The position numbers and the translations under genes are program-made. Under the pieces are notes generated by a model that was not told the origin of the DNA, did no database searches, and was given only the letters and a program-made list of their open reading frames with translations. From Mucilaginibacter lappiensis (lineage in GTDB: Bacteria > Bacteroidota > Bacteroidia > Sphingobacteriales > Sphingobacteriaceae), in contig NZ_FTMG01000016.1 in NCBI RefSeq assembly GCF_900155965.1, forward strand, positions 92,035-156,034: a DNA stretch of 64,000 bases, written 5' to 3'. Below are positions 51,677-61,896 of the stretch, piece by piece. The first letter of the stretch is position 1. Each line of letters opens with the position of its first letter.

Positions 51677-51803
51677 CCAACTCCCACTTTGATATTTAAG
51701 CCTATCATTTTGATAGCTTTATTTTGATCATAAACCTCCCGGTAATTTTAATGAACTAAGTAAATGGCTGTTTTATAGCTATTTAATACTATATTGTATT
51801 TAT

Positions 51804-51818
51804 TGGCATTTGCTTGGT
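51804..51818 (+). promoter_or_regulatory. Sigma-54-like -24/-12 site before the kdp operon
   Basis: TGGCATTTGCTTGGT compares with TGGCACGNNNNTTGC: the -24 box matches TGGCA, the -12 box has TGGT instead of TTGC, and the GG-to-GT spacing is right. Predicted start would be near 51830, 15 bp before the first small gene. No TAnnTTTG element was found in this region. The -12 C is missing, so this is a weak call. Confidence 0.35.
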
Positions 51819-51844
51819 AAAGGACTCTTAAAATATTTAATACT

Positions 51845-51937
51845 ATGGATGTTTTACAAGTTATTATTTACGTGGCGGTCTTTGCAGCCATCTTCTGGAT
51901 CTTTTTTAAATCAGTTAATTACTTCGAAAAAATCTAA
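51845..51937 (+). CDS. 30-aa single-helix miniprotein at the head of the kdp operon
   Basis: ATG to TAA encodes MDVLQVIIYVAVFAAIFWIF, then FKSVNYFEKI: one transmembrane helix (about residues 4-21) with a short polar C-terminal tail holding Lys, Glu and two aromatics. It ends 5 bp before kdpF, which is a similar-sized membrane peptide but of different sequence. The layout suggests a second small subunit or regulator of the KdpFABC pump, or a leader peptide. Not a family I recognise. Confidence 0.65.
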   Translation: MDVLQVIIYVAVFAAIFWIFFKSVNYFEKI

Positions 51938-51942
51938 TCACC

Positions 51943-52020
51943 ATGATCGCATTATTCATTGTGGCCATAGCCGTGTTTGTATACATGGTGTACGTGCTGC
52001 TTAAACCCGAAAAATTTTAA
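51943..52020 (+). CDS. kdpF: K+-transporting ATPase subunit KdpF
   Basis: 25 aa: MIALFIVAIAVFVYMVYVLL, then KPEKF. A single membrane helix with the KPEKF-type end characteristic of KdpF, which stabilises the KdpABC complex in the inner membrane. Gap of 11 bp to kdpA. Confidence 0.9.
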   Translation: MIALFIVAIAVFVYMVYVLLKPEKF

Positions 52021-52031
52021 TTATTTAAACC

Positions 52032-53747
52032 ATGAACACTGAAATTTCAGGTGTAATATTTACCTACCTACTCACACTCGCGCTGGCTATACCCTTGGGC
52101 CGGCACATCGCCCGTGTTTTTAAAGGCGAAAAAAACTGGCTGGATTTTATGGCCCCGTTGGAACGTTTCATTTTCCGTTTCAGTGGTATCGATACCAAAA
52201 AAGAAATGAGCTGGAAACAGCATTTATTCGCCCTGCTTACTATTAATAGTGTATGGCTGATATATGCTTTTGTTTGTTTAATGGCACAAGGGCACTTACC
52301 GTTAAATCCGGATGCAAACCCTGGCCAGTCGCCAGATACTGCTTTTAATACCGCTATCAGCTTTTTGGTCAACTGTAACCTGCAGCACTACTCGGGCGAA
52401 AGCGGCGCTACTTATTTTACACAGCATTTTGTATTCATGTTCCTGCACTTTGTATCCGCAGCCACCGGTATTGCCGCGCTGATTGTGGTTTTCAGGGCCA
52501 TGAAAGATAAGATAACTGATAAATTAGGGAACTTTTGGGATTACTTTGTAAAATCAATCACCCGTATATTATTACCGATTTCCTTTGTAATAGCTGTAAT
52601 ATTTGCCTTTAATGGCATGACCACCAGCTATGCAGGTAAAGACACCTTTATTAGTATGCAGGGCGATACCGTTCACGTATCCCGCGGACCTGTTGCTGCC
52701 CTGGTTGCTATCAAACACTTAGGTACAAACGGTGGCGGCTGGTTTGGAGCCAACTCTGCCCATCCTATCGAAAACCCTAACTATTTAACTAACACTACCG
52801 AATTGGTAGCACAATGTTTAATACCTATAGCCTTGGTATTTGCTTTAGGTTTTTATTTGAACAAGAAAAAATTCTCCTATGTGATATTCGGAGTGATGAC
52901 CATAGGGATGCTGCTATTCATGATCCCGACCATAAATGCCGAATTGAATGGAAACCCGGCTATAGCCCATATGGGTGTCAGTCAAACAACCGGAGCTATG
53001 GAAGGTAAGGAAGTAAGGTTTGGCCCGGCTAACTCAGCATACTGGAGCGTTATGACCACCATTATATCTACAGGTTCGGTAAACTCCATGCATGACAGCG
53101 CCATGCCTATGTCTGGTACCATGATGCTAATGGGTATGATGGTGAACTGCTTTTATGGTGGTTGCGGGGTAGGTATCCTCAACTTCTACATCTTTATCAT
53201 CATCGCAGTATTTATATCTGGATTGATGGTAGGGCGAACACCGGAATTTTTTGGGCGCAAGATAGAGGCCCGCGAAATGAAGATCGCATCCATCATTGCT
53301 TTGCTTCATCCTTTTATTATCCTGGTTGGCGCTGCTATATCATCCTATGTAATTGTACACATGCCGGGTGCCGATTGGGCCGTTAAACCATCTGCCTGGT
53401 TAAACAACCCGGGTAACCATGGGTTTGCTGAAATGCTGTATGAGTACACTTCATCAGCAGCTAACAATGGTTCGGGCTTTGAAGGTTTGGGCGATGGTAA
53501 CATTTTCTGGAACGTTACTACAGGTATTGTGATGGTACTGGGCAGGTTCCTGCCTATTATTGGTCCGCTGGCTATTGCCGGTTTACTGGCCAATAAAAAA
53601 TTCATCCCTGCATCAGCCGGTACATTAAAAAGTGATACCTCAACCTTTGGGATAATGATCTTCGCGGTAATCATGATCATTGCTGCCCTGTCATTCTTCC
53701 CTGCACTGGCATTAGGTCCAATTGCCGAACACTTTTCATTAAAATAA
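52032..53747 (+). CDS. kdpA: K+-transporting ATPase subunit A (channel-like)
   Basis: 571 aa, ten-helix superfamily-of-K-transporters protein that binds and passes K+ for the Kdp pump. Selectivity-filter loops are recognisable: VNCNLQHYSGESG (second), GTNGGGWFGANSAHP (third) and NNGSGFEGLGDGN (fourth). High-affinity K+ uptake at micromolar K+. The stop is only 5 bp before a 76-bp hairpin that separates it from kdpB. Confidence 0.97.
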   Translation: MNTEISGVIFTYLLTLALAIPLGRHIARVFKGEKNWLDFMAPLERFIFRFSGIDTKKEMSWKQHLFALLTINSVWLIYAFVCLMAQGHLPLNPDANPGQSPDTAFNTAISFLVNCNLQHYSGESGATYFTQHFVFMFLHFVSAATGIAALIVVFRAMKDKITDKLGNFWDYFVKSITRILLPISFVIAVIFAFNGMTTSYAGKDTFISMQGDTVHVSRGPVAALVAIKHLGTNGGGWFGANSAHPIENPNYLTNTTELVAQCLIPIALVFALGFYLNKKKFSYVIFGVMTIGMLLFMIPTINAELNGNPAIAHMGVSQTTGAMEGKEVRFGPANSAYWSVMTTIISTGSVNSMHDSAMPMSGTMMLMGMMVNCFYGGCGVGILNFYIFIIIAVFISGLMVGRTPEFFGRKIEAREMKIASIIALLHPFIILVGAAISSYVIVHMPGADWAVKPSAWLNNPGNHGFAEMLYEYTSSAANNGSGFEGLGDGNIFWNVTTGIVMVLGRFLPIIGPLAIAGLLANKKFIPASAGTLKSDTSTFGIMIFAVIMIIAALSFFPALALGPIAEHFSLK

Positions 53748-53845: not shown

Positions 53846-55876
53846 ATGAACTCAAATCAAAATACATTATTCCAGGGCGATCAGATGAAAGAAGCTTTTA
53901 AGCAATCATTCATCAAACTAAACCCACGCATCCTGTTCCGTAACCCGGTGATGTTCACTGTAGAGATCGGCACGGCGGTAATGCTCATCGTAAGCATTTA
54001 CTCTTTTGCCAATAAGGGTCAGGGTAGTTTTGCCTACAACTTTACCGTATTCATCGTTTTATTTTTAACCGTACTGTTTGCCAACTTTGCCGAAGCTATT
54101 GCCGAAGCACGTGGTAAAGCACAAGCCGAAAGCCTGCGCAAAACCCGTGAGGAAACACCTGCCCGCCTGCTGGTTAACGGCAAGGAGCAAATGGTGATGT
54201 CATCCCAACTTAAAAAAGGCGATGTGTTTATCTGCGAAACAGGTGATAACATCCCTACCGATGGCGAGATCATTGAAGGTATCGCTACCATTGATGAATC
54301 GGCGATTACGGGAGAATCAGCTCCGGTGATCCGCGAATCAGGTGGTGATAAATCATCTGTTACCGGTGGTACCAAAGTATTGTCAGACAAGATCAAGGTA
54401 ATGGTGACCACCCAGCCCGGTGAAAGCTTCCTGGATAAAATGATTGCTTTGGTTGAAGGTGCATCGCGTCAGAAAACACCCAATGAAATCGCTTTAACTA
54501 TTTTGTTATCAGGCTTTACACTCATCTTCGTGATTGTGTGTGTTACCCTGAAACCATTTGGAGATTATGCAAATACCCCTATAACTATAGCTGCTTTTAT
54601 TTCCCTGTTTGTATGTTTAATCCCTACCACTATCGGCGGTCTGTTATCAGCCATCGGTATTGCAGGGATGGACAGGGCTTTACGTGCCAATGTGATCACC
54701 AAATCTGGTAAAGCAGTAGAAACTGCCGGTGACCTGGATACTTTGCTACTGGATAAAACAGGTACCATCACCATAGGTAACCGTAAAGCCACCAACTTTT
54801 ATCCGGCCACAGGTATCACTCGTGAAAACTTTGTTGCTGCCTGCGTACTAAGCTCATTGGCTGATGAAACTCCCGAAGGTAAATCAATTGTTGAACTGGC
54901 CCATGAGGACAAAACCATGCCTAAGGTGGCTGCTCCCCAGGATTCAGTATTTATCAAATTTACTGCCGAAACCCGCTCCAGCGGTTTAGATACTCCAGAA
55001 GGTTTGCGGATCCGCAAAGGCGCGTTTGATTCTATCCGTAACATAGCCCTAAAGGCCGGTCACCCGTTCCCAACCGAGGTAGAAGATAATGTTAAAAAGA
55101 TCTCTTCAAACGGCGGTACCCCATTAGTGGTATCACAAAACGAACAGATCATGGGGGTTATCGAGCTGCAGGATATCATTAAACCCGGTATTGCCGAACG
55201 TTTTGAACGCCTGCGTAAAATGGGTGTTAAAACCGTAATGGTAACTGGTGATAACCCGCTTACCGCCAAATTTATAGCCGAGAAGGCCGGTGTGGATGAT
55301 TTTATTGCCGAGGCCAAGCCCGAGGATAAAATGAACTACATTAAAAAAGAGCAGCAAGGTGGCAAACTGGTAGCTATGATGGGCGACGGTACAAACGATG
55401 CTCCGGCCCTGGCACAAGCCGACGTAGGCGTGGCTATGAACAGTGGAACCCAGGCTGCTAAGGAAGCCGGTAACATGGTGGATCTGGATAACGACCCAAC
55501 CAAGCTGATTGAGATTGTGGAGATAGGTAAACAGTTATTGATGACCCGCGGTACGCTAACCACTTTTAGTATAGCTAATGACGTGGCCAAATATTTTGCC
55601 ATTGTGCCTGCCCTGTTCATGGTATCTATACCATCACTAAAAGCCCTGAACATCATGGACCTGCACAGCCCGGAATCGGCCATATTATCTGCGGTAATAT
55701 TTAACGCCATCATTATACCAATGTTAATACCACTGGCATTAAGAGGTGTGGAATATAAACCAATAGGTGCAAGCGCGCTGTTGCGCCGTAACCTGCTGAT
55801 ATACGGTTTAGGCGGTGTACTGATACCATTTATAGGTATTAAACTGATTGACCTGGCAGTAGGCGTATTTTTATAA
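53846..55876 (+). CDS. kdpB: K+-transporting P-type ATPase subunit B
   Basis: 676 aa P-type ATPase that energises the KdpA pore. Motifs: actuator ITGESAPV, phosphorylation Asp303 in [14 protein letters not shown], nucleotide-binding [40 protein letters not shown] and [38 protein letters not shown]. Membrane helices include the [17 protein letters not shown] segment and [14 protein letters not shown]. Inner membrane. Confidence 0.97.
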
Positions 55877-56051: not shown

Positions 56052-56618
56052 ATGAAAACATATTTGTTGCCCTCATTAAAGTTAACGCTCATTTTGATCG
56101 TGATAACAGCAGGCATATATCCACTGGCCATTGCCGGTGTAGGTAAATTAACTCCAGGCCATGGTGATGGCGAAACTTTAACTTATAAAGGCCGTGTAGT
56201 AGGCTACGCACTGGAAGGCCAGAAATTTACTAAGGACGAATACTTCTGGGGCCGTCCATCGGCAGTTGATTATAACGCTGCCGGATCAGGTGGTTCAAAC
56301 AAAGGTCCGTCAAACCCTGATTACCTGAAAGACGTTGAAAAACGTATTGAGGACTTCTTAAAGCATAACCCCGGTGTAACCCGCGCACAGATCCCTGCCG
56401 AAATGGTTACCGCATCGGGCAGTGGTTTGGATCCTGATATTTCGCCAGCCGGTGCGCAGGTACAGGTAGCCCGTATTGCTAAAGTGCGTGGTTTATCTGC
56501 CGATCAATTAACCAAACTGGTTGATGAGCATACCGAAAAACCATTGTTTGGCTTGTTTGGCCCAAGCAAAGTAAATGTGCTTAAACTGAATATAGCTTTA
56601 GAAGAGCTGAAAAAATAA
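56052..56618 (+). CDS. kdpC: K+-transporting ATPase subunit C
   Basis: 188 aa with one N-terminal membrane helix (LLPSLKLTLILIVITAGIYPLAI), then the exported KdpC domain: FTKDEYFWGRPSAVDYNAAGSGGSNKGPSNPDYL and VTASGSGLDPDISPAGAQVQVARIAKVRGLSADQLTKLVDEHTEKPLFGLFGPSKVNVLKLNIAL. Stabilises the KdpFABC complex and aids K+ binding. The start codon directly abuts the word array; no Shine-Dalgarno is visible. Confidence 0.97.
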   Translation: MKTYLLPSLKLTLILIVITAGIYPLAIAGVGKLTPGHGDGETLTYKGRVVGYALEGQKFTKDEYFWGRPSAVDYNAAGSGGSNKGPSNPDYLKDVEKRIEDFLKHNPGVTRAQIPAEMVTASGSGLDPDISPAGAQVQVARIAKVRGLSADQLTKLVDEHTEKPLFGLFGPSKVNVLKLNIALEELKK

Positions 56619-56779: not shown

Positions 56780-58114
56780 ATGAAAAAAATAGTTCTAATG
56801 ATAGTTGCCATGGCGGTTATCACCTTACATGCACACGCACAAAAGGATACAATCAAGGTTAAAAAAATCAAAAAAGATACCGTGGCACGTTCGTTACCAT
56901 CCCCAATTTCTTCACTTCCATTTCCGGTTTCGGATTGGGATGGTGCTCCTTTAATTGGGGCGGATGCTACTGCGCCCGATTATCCTTTGCAAAAGGCCTT
57001 GGGCATAACAAAAAGTAAAGTGAAAATTTATGGGTGGGTTGATGTTGGCGGCGATATTAGTTCGTCAAAACATTCAAATGCCCCTACTTCATATGATCTT
57101 ATCCCTAATTCGGTGTTTCTTGATCAGGTAGGTTTAAAGTTTGATAAACAACCCAACACGGTTCAAACAGATCATTTTGATTATGGATTTTTATCAACCA
57201 CCATATTTGGGACCGATTACAGGTACACTACAGGCAAGGGCTATTTTAGTGATCAGTTGCTTAAACACAATAATAAATATGGCGTTGACCCGGCCGAAAT
57301 TTATGGCCTCTTATATTTTCCTAAAGTAGCCGATGGCTTATTAGTAAAGGTAGGGCGATTTATATCTCCGGCTGATATTGAAGCGCAATGGGCTACTGAT
57401 AATTATTTGTATACCCACTCCCTCATGTTTACGGTTGACCCTTATACATTTACCGGCGCTCAGGCAACCTTTAAACTGGGCTCGCACTGGCAACTGGAAG
57501 TAGGCATACATGGTGGTAATGATGTTGCCCCATGGAGTAAAGCAGCAAGTGTAAATGGCTTACTAATGGCCAGATGGGTATCAAACGATAATGACGATTC
57601 TATTTATGGCGGTATAAACGCCCTGGGAGCAGGTAAATACAAAGACAACCATGACGATCTGCAAATGGTAGTAGCTACATGGGGACATAAATTTAACAAA
57701 ACATTGCACATGATGACCGAGGTTTATTATATGTGGCAACATGATGCCTTAGTTGGCGGAACAGTGATTGATGGTCCTCCGCAGCCTTTTTACACTAATG
57801 TTGGTGCAGGCAGTCCTATACCGGGAGCAGCGCAGGCAGTTGGTGCAGTTAACTATTTCCAGATCAAACTGTCAACGCATGATTATATATCTATACGTAA
57901 CGGTTATCTGAGCGATCCGCAGGGCAACAGAACAGGTTTTGCAACAAGTTATTCCGATCATACCATAGGGTTTGTACACCACTTTAATAACTACATACGC
58001 ATACGTCCCGAAATACGGTACGAGCGTGCTTATGCCAATGGTGTCACTCCTTACGATAACGGAACAAAAAGAGATCAATACTCTGCGGCTATGGATTTAA
58101 TTGTACGCTTTTAA
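56780..58114 (+). CDS. BBP2-type outer-membrane porin (OmpL-like)
   Basis: 444 aa. Signal peptide MKKIVLMIVAMAVITLHAHA then Q, a linker rich in Lys/Thr, then a beta-barrel: VKIYGWVDVGGDISSSKHSNAP, NSVFLDQVGLKFDKQPNTVQTDHFDYGFLSTTIFGTDYRYT, YFPKVADGLLVKVGRFISPADIEAQWATDNYLYTHSL, and IRPEIRYERAY...MDLIVRF at the C-terminus. Fits the putative beta-barrel porin-2 family. Its position between kdpC and the kdp sensor genes suggests it lets K+ through the outer membrane when K+ is scarce. Confidence 0.85.
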   Translation: MKKIVLMIVAMAVITLHAHAQKDTIKVKKIKKDTVARSLPSPISSLPFPVSDWDGAPLIGADATAPDYPLQKALGITKSKVKIYGWVDVGGDISSSKHSNAPTSYDLIPNSVFLDQVGLKFDKQPNTVQTDHFDYGFLSTTIFGTDYRYTTGKGYFSDQLLKHNNKYGVDPAEIYGLLYFPKVADGLLVKVGRFISPADIEAQWATDNYLYTHSLMFTVDPYTFTGAQATFKLGSHWQLEVGIHGGNDVAPWSKAASVNGLLMARWVSNDNDDSIYGGINALGAGKYKDNHDDLQMVVATWGHKFNKTLHMMTEVYYMWQHDALVGGTVIDGPPQPFYTNVGAGSPIPGAAQAVGAVNYFQIKLSTHDYISIRNGYLSDPQGNRTGFATSYSDHTIGFVHHFNNYIRIRPEIRYERAYANGVTPYDNGTKRDQYSAAMDLIVRF

Positions 58115-58926: not shown

Positions 58927-59055
58927 ATGAAAATGCTAAGTTTAAGCAAAGGTAGTGCAGTTTCCTTCTCAGGAGGGATTGGGAAATTGGATATAAAGAA
59001 AATCGATAATTTTAAAGTCTCCCCTACTGGGGCAGATTTAGAGAGGGCTTCATGA
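58927..59055 (+). CDS. 42-codon leader ORF overlapping the kdpD start
   Basis: ATG 58927 to TGA 59055 encodes MKMLSLSKGSAVSFSGGIGK, then 22 more residues ending SPTGADLERAS. Its stop and the KdpD start share ATGA (59052-59055), the usual arrangement for translational coupling. The last 12 or so codons come from a remnant of the CTCCCC/GGGGAG repeat family. Whether it is translated is not shown; it may be an incidental frame. Confidence 0.4.
   Translation: MKMLSLSKGSAVSFSGGIGKLDIKKIDNFKVSPTGADLERAS
59010..59055. repeat. Decayed CTCCCC-family repeat providing the kdpD start region
   Basis: TTTTAAAGTCTCCCC (from 59010), then GGGGCAGATTTAGAGAGGGCTTC, matches in shortened form the family copies at 51569, 53753 and 62083 (TTTTAAAG, CTCCCC, GGGGAG, GCGAAGCCCTC inverse). 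The kdpD ATG sits at its right edge. Confidence 0.6.
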
Positions 59056-60182
59056 GCGAAGAAAATAAAGAGCAGTCGGTTGAGCATTTCCTGGAGCTGA
59101 TTAAACGTTCGAGGAGGGGTAAATTTAAGGTTTACATAGGCATGAGCGCCGGTGTGGGTAAAACCTACCGCATGCTGCTGGAGGCCCAGGCCCTGATGCG
59201 TAATGGCATTGATGTTAAAATAGGCTACGTTGAAACCCACGGTCGTAAAGAAACTGTGGCGCAGTTGGAAGGTTTGCCGGTAATACCCCGCCGAAAGTTG
59301 TTTTATAAAGGTAAGGAGCTGGAAGAGATGGATCTGAAAGCCATCATCAGCCTGCGCCCCGAAGTGGTGATAGTTGATGAACTGGCCCATACCAATATTG
59401 AAGGCAGCAGTAACGAAAAACGCTGGCAGGATGTAATGCAGATCCTGAACGCGGGTATCAACGTGATCAGTGCGGTAAACATTCAGCATATGGAAAGCCT
59501 GAATGAGGAAGTACAGCGCATTACCGGGGCAACCATTACGGAACGCATCCCCGACAAGGTGTTGCAAATGGCCGATGAAGTGGTGAATATCGACTTAACT
59601 GCTGACGAATTGATTGATCGTTTAAAGGAGGGAAAGATATATGATGAAAAGAAAGTACCGCTGGCGCTCAATAATTTTTTCCAGGCCGAAAGGATATTAC
59701 AACTGCGTGAACTGGCCCTGCGCGAGGTGGCCCACCAGGTAGAACGGAAAATTGATATCGAGATACCCAAAAATATCAAACTGCGGCCCGAACTCTTTTT
59801 GGCCTGCATCAGTACCAATGATGCATCAGCAAAAATAATTATCCGCAAAACGGCCAGGCTGTCATCATACTATCGTTCCAAATGGTATGTACTGTATGTA
59901 CAAACCTCGCGCGAAAGCAGCGACAAAATAAACCTGGCATCACAGCGCCATCTCATTAACAACATGAAACTGGCTACACAGTTGGGCGGCGAGGTACTCA
60001 AAGTAAAAAACGACCAAATAGCTAAAGCCATTTGGGAAACGGCCGAAAAATATGATATCACCACCATTTGTATTGGTAAACCAAGGTTTAAGTTTTACCA
60101 GGTGATCATGAAAACGGCGGTGTTTACTCAATTGTTGAATAAAATGTCTAAAACGGATATTGACCTTGTAATACTATCATAA
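59052..60182 (+). CDS. KdpD-type K+ sensor protein without kinase domain
   Basis: 376 aa. KdpD N-terminal P-loop domain (VYIGMSAGVGKTYRMLLEAQ, Walker A at about 30-38; GYVETHGRKETVAQLEGL; VDELAHTNIEGSSNEKRWQDVMQIL; VNIQHMESLNEEVQRITG) to about 215, then a universal-stress-protein domain (FLACISTNDASAKIIIRKTARLSS to the end). The four membrane helices and histidine kinase of full KdpD are missing; a separate kinase gene follows after one base. Cytoplasmic; presumably binds nucleotide and modulates the kinase in response to low K+. Confidence 0.92.
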   Translation: MSEENKEQSVEHFLELIKRSRRGKFKVYIGMSAGVGKTYRMLLEAQALMRNGIDVKIGYVETHGRKETVAQLEGLPVIPRRKLFYKGKELEEMDLKAIISLRPEVVIVDELAHTNIEGSSNEKRWQDVMQILNAGINVISAVNIQHMESLNEEVQRITGATITERIPDKVLQMADEVVNIDLTADELIDRLKEGKIYDEKKVPLALNNFFQAERILQLRELALREVAHQVERKIDIEIPKNIKLRPELFLACISTNDASAKIIIRKTARLSSYYRSKWYVLYVQTSRESSDKINLASQRHLINNMKLATQLGGEVLKVKNDQIAKAIWETAEKYDITTICIGKPRFKFYQVIMKTAVFTQLLNKMSKTDIDLVILS

Positions 60183-60183
60183 C

Positions 60184-61896
60184 ATGACCATTAAAAATAA
60201 ACTACGTACAGGCATCGGTTTTTTGTTTGTCCTGTCATTCATCTGCTGCGGCTTGTCGGTGTATTTCCTCAACCGTTTATCGGCCGATGCGGGTGCTATT
60301 CTAAAAGATAATTATAAATCATTGCAGTACGGCCAGCAGATCCTGTCGGCGGTAGATGCTAATGGAGGTCCGCTTAGCCCGGCGCAATTAAAAACTATTG
60401 AAACCAACCTGGTGCTGGAAGAACATAATATTACCGAACCCGGCGAAGGTCAAACAGCTGCTTCGCTGCGCACCGTTTTTGAAAAAATAAAACTGGTAAA
60501 TAACGATGCTGCCCAGCTACCTGCATTACGTGCACAGGCCAGGCAATTGGTTTACAGCTTTATGCAGCTAAATATGACGGCCATTTCGCATAAAAATGAT
60601 ATTGCCAAAGGTACAGCCAACCGCGCCACTATACTGGTTGCATTTTGCGGGGCGTTCTTGTTCCTGGTAGCCTTTAGTTTCGCGGTTAATTTCCCGGGTT
60701 ATATAGCTAATCCGCTTAAGGAGCTTACCGCCCGCATCAAAGAGGTATCCAACCGTAACTATCATCAACAGATCGATTTCCGGTCTGATGATGAATTTGG
60801 CGAACTGGGCCATGCCTTTAACACCATGACCCGCAAGCTGGATGAATTTGAGAACAGCAACCTGGCCAGTATCCTTTTTGAGAAAAAACGGATTGAAACC
60901 ATCATCAATTCCATGCACGATGCTATTTTGGGTCTGGACGAGAAAATGATCATCATATTTGCCAATGAAGTAGCTTGCTCACTCATCGGGATGACAGCCG
61001 ATCAGTTGAATGGCCGCTATGCGCCTGATGTGGCTATCGAAAACGACCTGCTCCGCAACTTGCTGATGAACGATCAAAGCCGGCTAAAAATATTTGCCGA
61101 TAACCGGGAGAGTTTTTACTCGCGCGAGTCGCTATCTGTAAGCAGTAAAGACAGGGTGATAGGCAAGGTGATTATCCTGAAAAATATTACCGAATATCAG
61201 CAACTGGATGAGGCTAAAACCAATTTCATCGCCACCATATCGCATGAATTAAAAACCCCGATATCGTCTATCAAAATGAGCCTTAAGTTATTGGAGGATG
61301 TACGCATTGGTGATGTAAATGCCGAGCAAAGGCAACTGCTGGAGAACATTGAAGAAGATGCCCGTCGTCTGCTGCAAATAACCGGCGAACTGCTGGATAT
61401 GGCACAGGTAGAAACCGGCAAGCTACAGCTTAACTTCGGAAAAACCCATCCTAGAAATATTGTAGATTACGCGGTGAAGGCCATCAAATCTATAGCCGAT
61501 CAGAAACAGGTTATCATTAAAGTTCAGTGCGATGAAAACCTGCCCGATGTACATGCCGACCTGGATAAAACCACCTGGGTGCTCATCAATCTGCTATCCA
61601 ATGCCATCAAATACAGTCACGAAAAATCAACCGTGGAGCTGGTGGTGAAAAAGCGCCACACCGACGAGATCGAGTTTTCTGTACAGGATCATGGCAAGGG
61701 TATCGAAGAGCAGTACCTGTCGCGCTTGTTCGAACGCTATTTCAAAGTCCCCAACGCCACCGCCGATCAAACCGGCACAGGTCTGGGCCTGGCCATTGCC
61801 AAAGATTTTATCGAAGCACAATCAGGGAAAATTGCTGTGGATAGCGAACTGGGTGCAGGCAGCAGGTTTGCCTTTACTTTGAAAAGAGTGGCTTAA
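60184..61896 (+). CDS. HAMP-PAS sensor histidine kinase
   Basis: 570 aa: TM1 (GIGFLFVLSFICCGLSVYFL, about 10-29), exported sensor about 30-145, TM2 (ATILVAFCGAFLFLVAFSFAV, about 147-168), HAMP about 170-225, PAS about 235-340, HisKA with the phospho-accepting His354 in FIATISHELKTP, then HATPase_c with N-box NLLSNAIKYS, G1 DHGKGIEE and G2 GTGLGLAIAKDF. It starts one base after the KdpD-like gene stop, so the pair is cotranscribed and probably acts as a split KdpD. No response regulator follows; the cognate partner must lie elsewhere. Confidence 0.95.
   Translation: MTIKNKLRTGIGFLFVLSFICCGLSVYFLNRLSADAGAILKDNYKSLQYGQQILSAVDANGGPLSPAQLKTIETNLVLEEHNITEPGEGQTAASLRTVFEKIKLVNNDAAQLPALRAQARQLVYSFMQLNMTAISHKNDIAKGTANRATILVAFCGAFLFLVAFSFAVNFPGYIANPLKELTARIKEVSNRNYHQQIDFRSDDEFGELGHAFNTMTRKLDEFENSNLASILFEKKRIETIINSMHDAILGLDEKMIIIFANEVACSLIGMTADQLNGRYAPDVAIENDLLRNLLMNDQSRLKIFADNRESFYSRESLSVSSKDRVIGKVIILKNITEYQQLDEAKTNFIATISHELKTPISSIKMSLKLLEDVRIGDVNAEQRQLLENIEEDARRLLQITGELLDMAQVETGKLQLNFGKTHPRNIVDYAVKAIKSIADQKQVIIKVQCDENLPDVHADLDKTTWVLINLLSNAIKYSHEKSTVELVVKKRHTDEIEFSVQDHGKGIEEQYLSRLFERYFKVPNATADQTGTGLGLAIAKDFIEAQSGKIAVDSELGAGSRFAFTLKRVA

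Follow-up and report, generated by a model that had tools for sequence, protein, structure and literature searches.

A conserved single-span membrane miniprotein encoded directly before kdpF, a candidate extra subunit of the KdpFABC potassium pump

The KdpFABC pump of Escherichia coli is presented in a passage of PMC6255902 as a complex of four subunits, of which KdpF is a "lipid-like single spanner." The title of Gassel 1999, as cited in PMC11364881, has KdpF stabilizing the complex in vitro, and a passage of PMC11018627 states that the N-terminal domain of KdpD phosphorylates KdpB at Ser162 in E. coli. The pump of E. coli K-12 is fully active and structurally solved, and it comes without a gene for the peptide described here. 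Small single-span regulators of pumps or kinases include AcrZ and MgrB. These two, CydX, and further accessory or regulatory miniproteins with one span offer a functional parallel to our peptide (i.e., one helix accompanying a membrane protein or complex), with no claim of sequence relation. An Alicyclobacillus operon, kdpZFABCN, reportedly described by Schleussinger in 2006, is said to carry kdpZ before kdpF and a split kdpD. By that description, kdpZ would resemble our peptide in its position before kdpF and in the accompanying split kdpD, and it may be an earlier naming of, or a precedent for, the peptide.

We analyzed a window of 64,000 nucleotides (i.e., the whole stretch of DNA under study) from Mucilaginibacter lappiensis. 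It contains a kdp operon with the following features.

51803..51819, + strand: sigma-54-like box TTGGCATTTGCTTGGTA, -24 GG and -12 TTGG (consensus only)
51845..51937, + strand: predicted 30-aa single-span membrane miniprotein (frame, conservation, selection, AlphaFold2)
51943..52020, + strand: kdpF, 25 aa (Pfam PF09604, E 2.6e-8; TIGR02115)
52032..53747, + strand: kdpA (PF03814, E 3.5e-222)
53846..55876, + strand: kdpB (P-type ATPase domains)
56052..56618, + strand: kdpC (PF02669, E 3.2e-71)
56780..58114, + strand: outer-membrane porin of the OmpL/BBP2 type, after kdpC (PF07642, E 3e-30)
59052..60182, + strand: separate KdpD N-terminal domain protein, from a split KdpD (PF02702, E 7.5e-92)
60184..61896, + strand: sensor histidine kinase, HAMP-PAS-HisKA-HATPase (domain matches)

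An earlier note on this DNA had described a membrane miniprotein of 30 aa upstream of kdpF. We confirmed its ATG-to-TAA frame at 51845-51937 on the forward strand (MDVLQVIIYVAVFAAIFWIFFKSVNYFEKI, stop TAA), and the kdpF start lies 5 bp (tcacc) past the stop, as had been claimed. The single membrane helix proposed there agrees with the AlphaFold2 model, which predicts one helix spanning residues 3 to 29 (mean pLDDT, 95.7). Given its acidic start and the lysines near its end, the peptide appears to be oriented N-out and C-in. Across 24 diverse Bacteroidota peptides, W18, K22, F27, and I30 were invariant, and E28 was nearly so. The conserved part of the peptide is the short polar tail K..V.YFEKI. 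KdpD is split (59052-61896), with adjoining but separate genes for its N-terminal domain and for the histidine kinase.

The earlier note had tied its proposal to conservation of the frame, and the frame is kept where close relatives keep kdpF (61/61 loci in the genus). An initial search covering 60 relatives placed all strong peptide matches directly ahead of kdpF. Across 61 surveyed genomes of the genus, the peptide was directly before kdpF at every one of the 61 kdp loci: all 60 Pfam kdpF matches were paired with a peptide 8 to 18 nt upstream (measured as the gap from one profile match to the other), and the one peptide left without a Pfam partner (G353) precedes a kdpF below the Pfam cut-off, MIALFIISIAVFMYMIYVLLKPENF, which was recognized by eye. 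Five genomes of the genus without the peptide were also without a kdpF match; three of these are 58 to 71% complete.

A sample of the phylum consisted of 62 KdpA loci and was anchored on KdpA so that the peptide itself did not choose the loci. A frame was counted if it encoded 24 to 48 aa with one strongly hydrophobic stretch and if its end adjoined kdpF. The script count of 46/56 was corrected by hand to 46/55 kdpF-bearing Bacteroidota loci with a one-helix open reading frame (ORF) before kdpF: G161 was not kdpF, off-frame noise at G232 was removed, and G304, where the real peptide is about 75 nt ahead of kdpF and thus outside the distance rule, was added. Under the same rule, control intervals further upstream gave 3/168 and the opposite strand gave 0/56. 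The one-helix ORF was missing at nine kdpF loci (G338, G104, G232, G138, G077, G293, G347, G081, and G170), the frames at five of which held no clear peptide remnant; such a peptide was likewise not seen at the six sampled KdpA loci without kdpF. In several other lineages, the stop codon of the peptide and the start codon of kdpF overlap (ATGA), a common arrangement for coupled subunits. At four loci of one family (f37; L176, L177, L181, and L183), the one-helix ORF upstream differs in sequence (e.g., MNVYQTLYLGILIFLVIAGLGALAGIIFHL) and has no tail motif.

To assess selection, we compared 43 distinct sequences from the genus. Mean pS was 0.60 and mean pN was 0.157 (ratio, 0.26), the median corrected dN/dS was 0.16, and codon positions 1 and 2 were almost fixed over the last ten codons while third positions were variable. 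Given that this set had been picked partly by similarity, the comparison was repeated on 11 KdpA-anchored loci of another genus (g30, probably a member of Flavobacteriales), with similar results (pS, 0.52; pN, 0.11; ratio, 0.21). The numbers of variable sites at codon positions 1, 2, and 3 of the latter set were 14, 7, and 25 of 26, respectively. Neutral substitution, named in the earlier note as evidence that would speak against the frame, was thus not what we observed; the pattern is strongly non-neutral in both sets (pN/pS, about 0.2 to 0.26). Judged by these sequence comparisons, the frame is a gene that codes for protein, with purifying selection acting at the amino-acid level.

One-helix ORFs in the same position next to kdpF, mostly unannotated or misnamed, were also found in Pseudomonadota, Actinomycetota, Deinococcota, and Bacillota. 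The sample from other phyla is a few plasmid records rather than a systematic count; kdp loci with such an ORF were on plasmids of Burkholderia, Mycetohabitans, Caballeronia, Rhizobium, Sinorhizobium, Shinella, Acetobacter, Novosphingobium, Deinococcus, Nonomuraea, Listeria, and Niallia. In Rhizobiaceae and relatives, the peptide was present in 164 plasmid records (Rhizobium, 139; Sinorhizobium, 13; Azospirillum, 8; Phyllobacterium, 3; Shinella, 1), at identities down to below 60% and mostly without an annotated gene. The gene order in Allomeiothermus is kdpF-peptide-kdpA, and in Deinococcus radiodurans kdpB comes first, yet the peptide and kdpF still precede kdpA. Deinococcus sp. QL22 (L209) has two kdpF-like one-helix ORFs in tandem, with the ends RAERF and MPEKL, in the 180 bases before kdpA. 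The E. coli K-12 and Halobacterium loci have kdpF alone, and no peptide was seen at the kdp loci of Synechocystis and Picosynechococcus.

Some of these ORFs are annotated, as "hypothetical protein" or "potassium ABC transporter ATPase." Small ORFs bearing the latter RefSeq name (e.g., WP_338861741.1 of Mycetohabitans) lie before kdpF and encode one span in 26 to 36 aa, like our peptide; the name is incorrect for a peptide of 34 aa, and the hhalign probability against the Bacteroidota peptides is 11%. The alignment of Bacteroidota with other-phylum peptides covers 27 columns at this probability (E 0.0027, for one comparison), and HMM scores between the two groups were only slightly above those of shuffles. 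Many other-phylum peptides end in an acidic, a basic, and an aliphatic residue, [DE][KRN][LI]. Place, size, topology, and this ending argue for common ancestry of the two groups, which the profiles do not establish.

A KdpF-like role is the simplest reading because a helix of the same size is encoded beside kdpF and kdpA and is under amino-acid selection. We consider it reasonably likely that KdpFABC has the peptide as an additional single-span subunit, which would be synthesized along with KdpF and KdpA. It would insert in the membrane with its N terminus outside and its C-terminal tail facing the cytoplasm. Within the membrane portion of the complex, the helix would pack close to KdpF and KdpA, with the conserved tail touching KdpA or KdpB on their cytoplasmic side, and it may stabilize the complex or tune its cycle, a role resembling that of KdpF in E. 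coli. Some lineages, E. coli among them, would manage without it; Kdp transport as such does not require the peptide because 9/55 Bacteroidota kdpF loci and E. coli K-12 are without it. We propose the class "Kdp-associated single-span miniprotein" for single helices of about 26 to 30 aa whose gene lies next to kdpF and precedes kdpA, as is the case here.

Conservation beside KdpF is linkage, not physical contact, and the same pattern would be expected of a regulator that acts on KdpB or the kinase. The product could then be a regulatory membrane peptide, not a stoichiometric subunit, that acts on pump activity, KdpB serine phosphorylation, turnover, or the sensor kinase. Single-span regulators of the AcrZ and MgrB kind exist, and the operon encodes a free KdpD N-terminal domain whose E. 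coli counterpart phosphorylates KdpB Ser162, so that a membrane partner is conceivable. However, the peptide travels with kdpF and kdpA and not with the KdpD N-terminal domain or the kinase, as seen in D. radiodurans and Allomeiothermus, and we regard this alternative as unlikely. Of the roles suggested in the earlier note, that of an extra subunit fits the sequence evidence best; a role as "regulator of pump turnover" forms a sub-case inseparable by sequence.

The peptide could also be a diverged duplicate of KdpF, the pump then having two copies of one helix subunit. The two proteins are alike in size (25 to 30 aa), in having one span and adjoining genes in the operon, and in their short charged C-terminal tails with E-K before the last hydrophobic residue, and the tandem ORFs of Deinococcus sp. 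QL22 would fit such an origin. In contrast, the tails themselves differ: the peptide ends in KSVNYFEKI (K..(V/I)..FE(K/N)I as a family), which is neither a KdpF-type (K/R)PE(K/R)F C terminus such as KPEKF nor close to one. The adjoining kdpF matches PF09604 and TIGR02115, and the peptide matches neither; its matches in Pfam, NCBIfam, and PDB were at chance level (the best in NCBIfam being CydP, E 0.13), and it has no family model. The Bacteroidota profile aligned to KdpF with a nonsignificant probability of 27%, over the helix only, and unlike KdpF the peptide is absent in E. coli. The assertion that it is distinct from KdpF thus holds as far as sequence tells, and descent by duplication appears improbable; such an origin would leave the extra-subunit model unchanged.

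Even less probable is a leader peptide or translational-coupling ORF, whose translation would control kdpF and kdpA expression and whose product would be irrelevant. The peptide is the first frame past the predicted promoter, and the distance from its stop to the kdpF start is short or negative through overlap. The sigma-54-like pattern had one match in the window (25 of 100 shuffled windows also held at least one), and a box of this type was present in 35/91 loci, 38 to 46 nt before the peptide ATG in 32 of these, compared with 2% of background 140-nt windows. Fis-type C-terminal ends of sigma-54-dependent regulators were encoded upstream of kdp in many relatives. From the position of the box, we infer a transcription start at about 51830. 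This would leave a 5' untranslated region of only about 15 nt, and the 5 bp before kdpF give no room for attenuation. The RNA fold of 51830-52040 was ordinary (z, -0.23) with no stable leader structure, no riboswitch or other known RNA of Rfam matched the leader above chance, and the one terminator-like match, inside kdpF, was within chance variation. Selection acts on the amino acids, and in Allomeiothermus the peptide lies between kdpF and kdpA. On these grounds, the leader role offered by the earlier note is disfavored. A chance ORF or an annotation artifact, conceivable for a frame of only 30 codons, is ruled out for practical purposes by conservation, selection, and linkage to kdpF.

The description of the peptide as new stands for both function and family: a PubMed Central search returned no description of it, and the passages available from the D. 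radiodurans and Caulobacter kdp papers make no mention of such a peptide. Besides KdpF, most Kdp operons sampled carry a second predicted membrane helix of 26 to 30 residues, absent from E. coli and probably an overlooked subunit. More tentatively, and with somewhat more doubt than confidence, the Kdp pump may have five subunits across most bacterial phyla, one of them a second single-span helix. If so, this helix would have escaped notice as E. coli, the basis of the structural work, has none; the model organism would show a reduced version, the textbook four-subunit pump, and the second helix would offer a direct handle on how small helices stabilize or tune P-type ATPases. Automatic annotation is corrected as well, given that genome records lack or misname the peptide ORFs.

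The same genome has a second complete kdp operon (G000 contig C24) in the order peptide-kdpF-kdpA-kdpB-kdpC-porin-KdpD N-terminal domain-kinase-sigma-54 regulator. In both operons, a BBP2-type porin, perhaps a potassium entry porin, sits between kdpC and the gene for the KdpD N-terminal domain (window 56780-58114; L186 9420-10493). Past the second operon lies a solitary, more divergent second kdpA (E 7e-188; L186 14971-16674, about 272970-274673 of contig C24), with neither kdpF nor the peptide ahead of it. Within the window, no response regulator follows the histidine kinase, and the next gene is on the opposite strand. In the second operon, a sigma-54-dependent response regulator comes after the kinase, and it may serve both operons.
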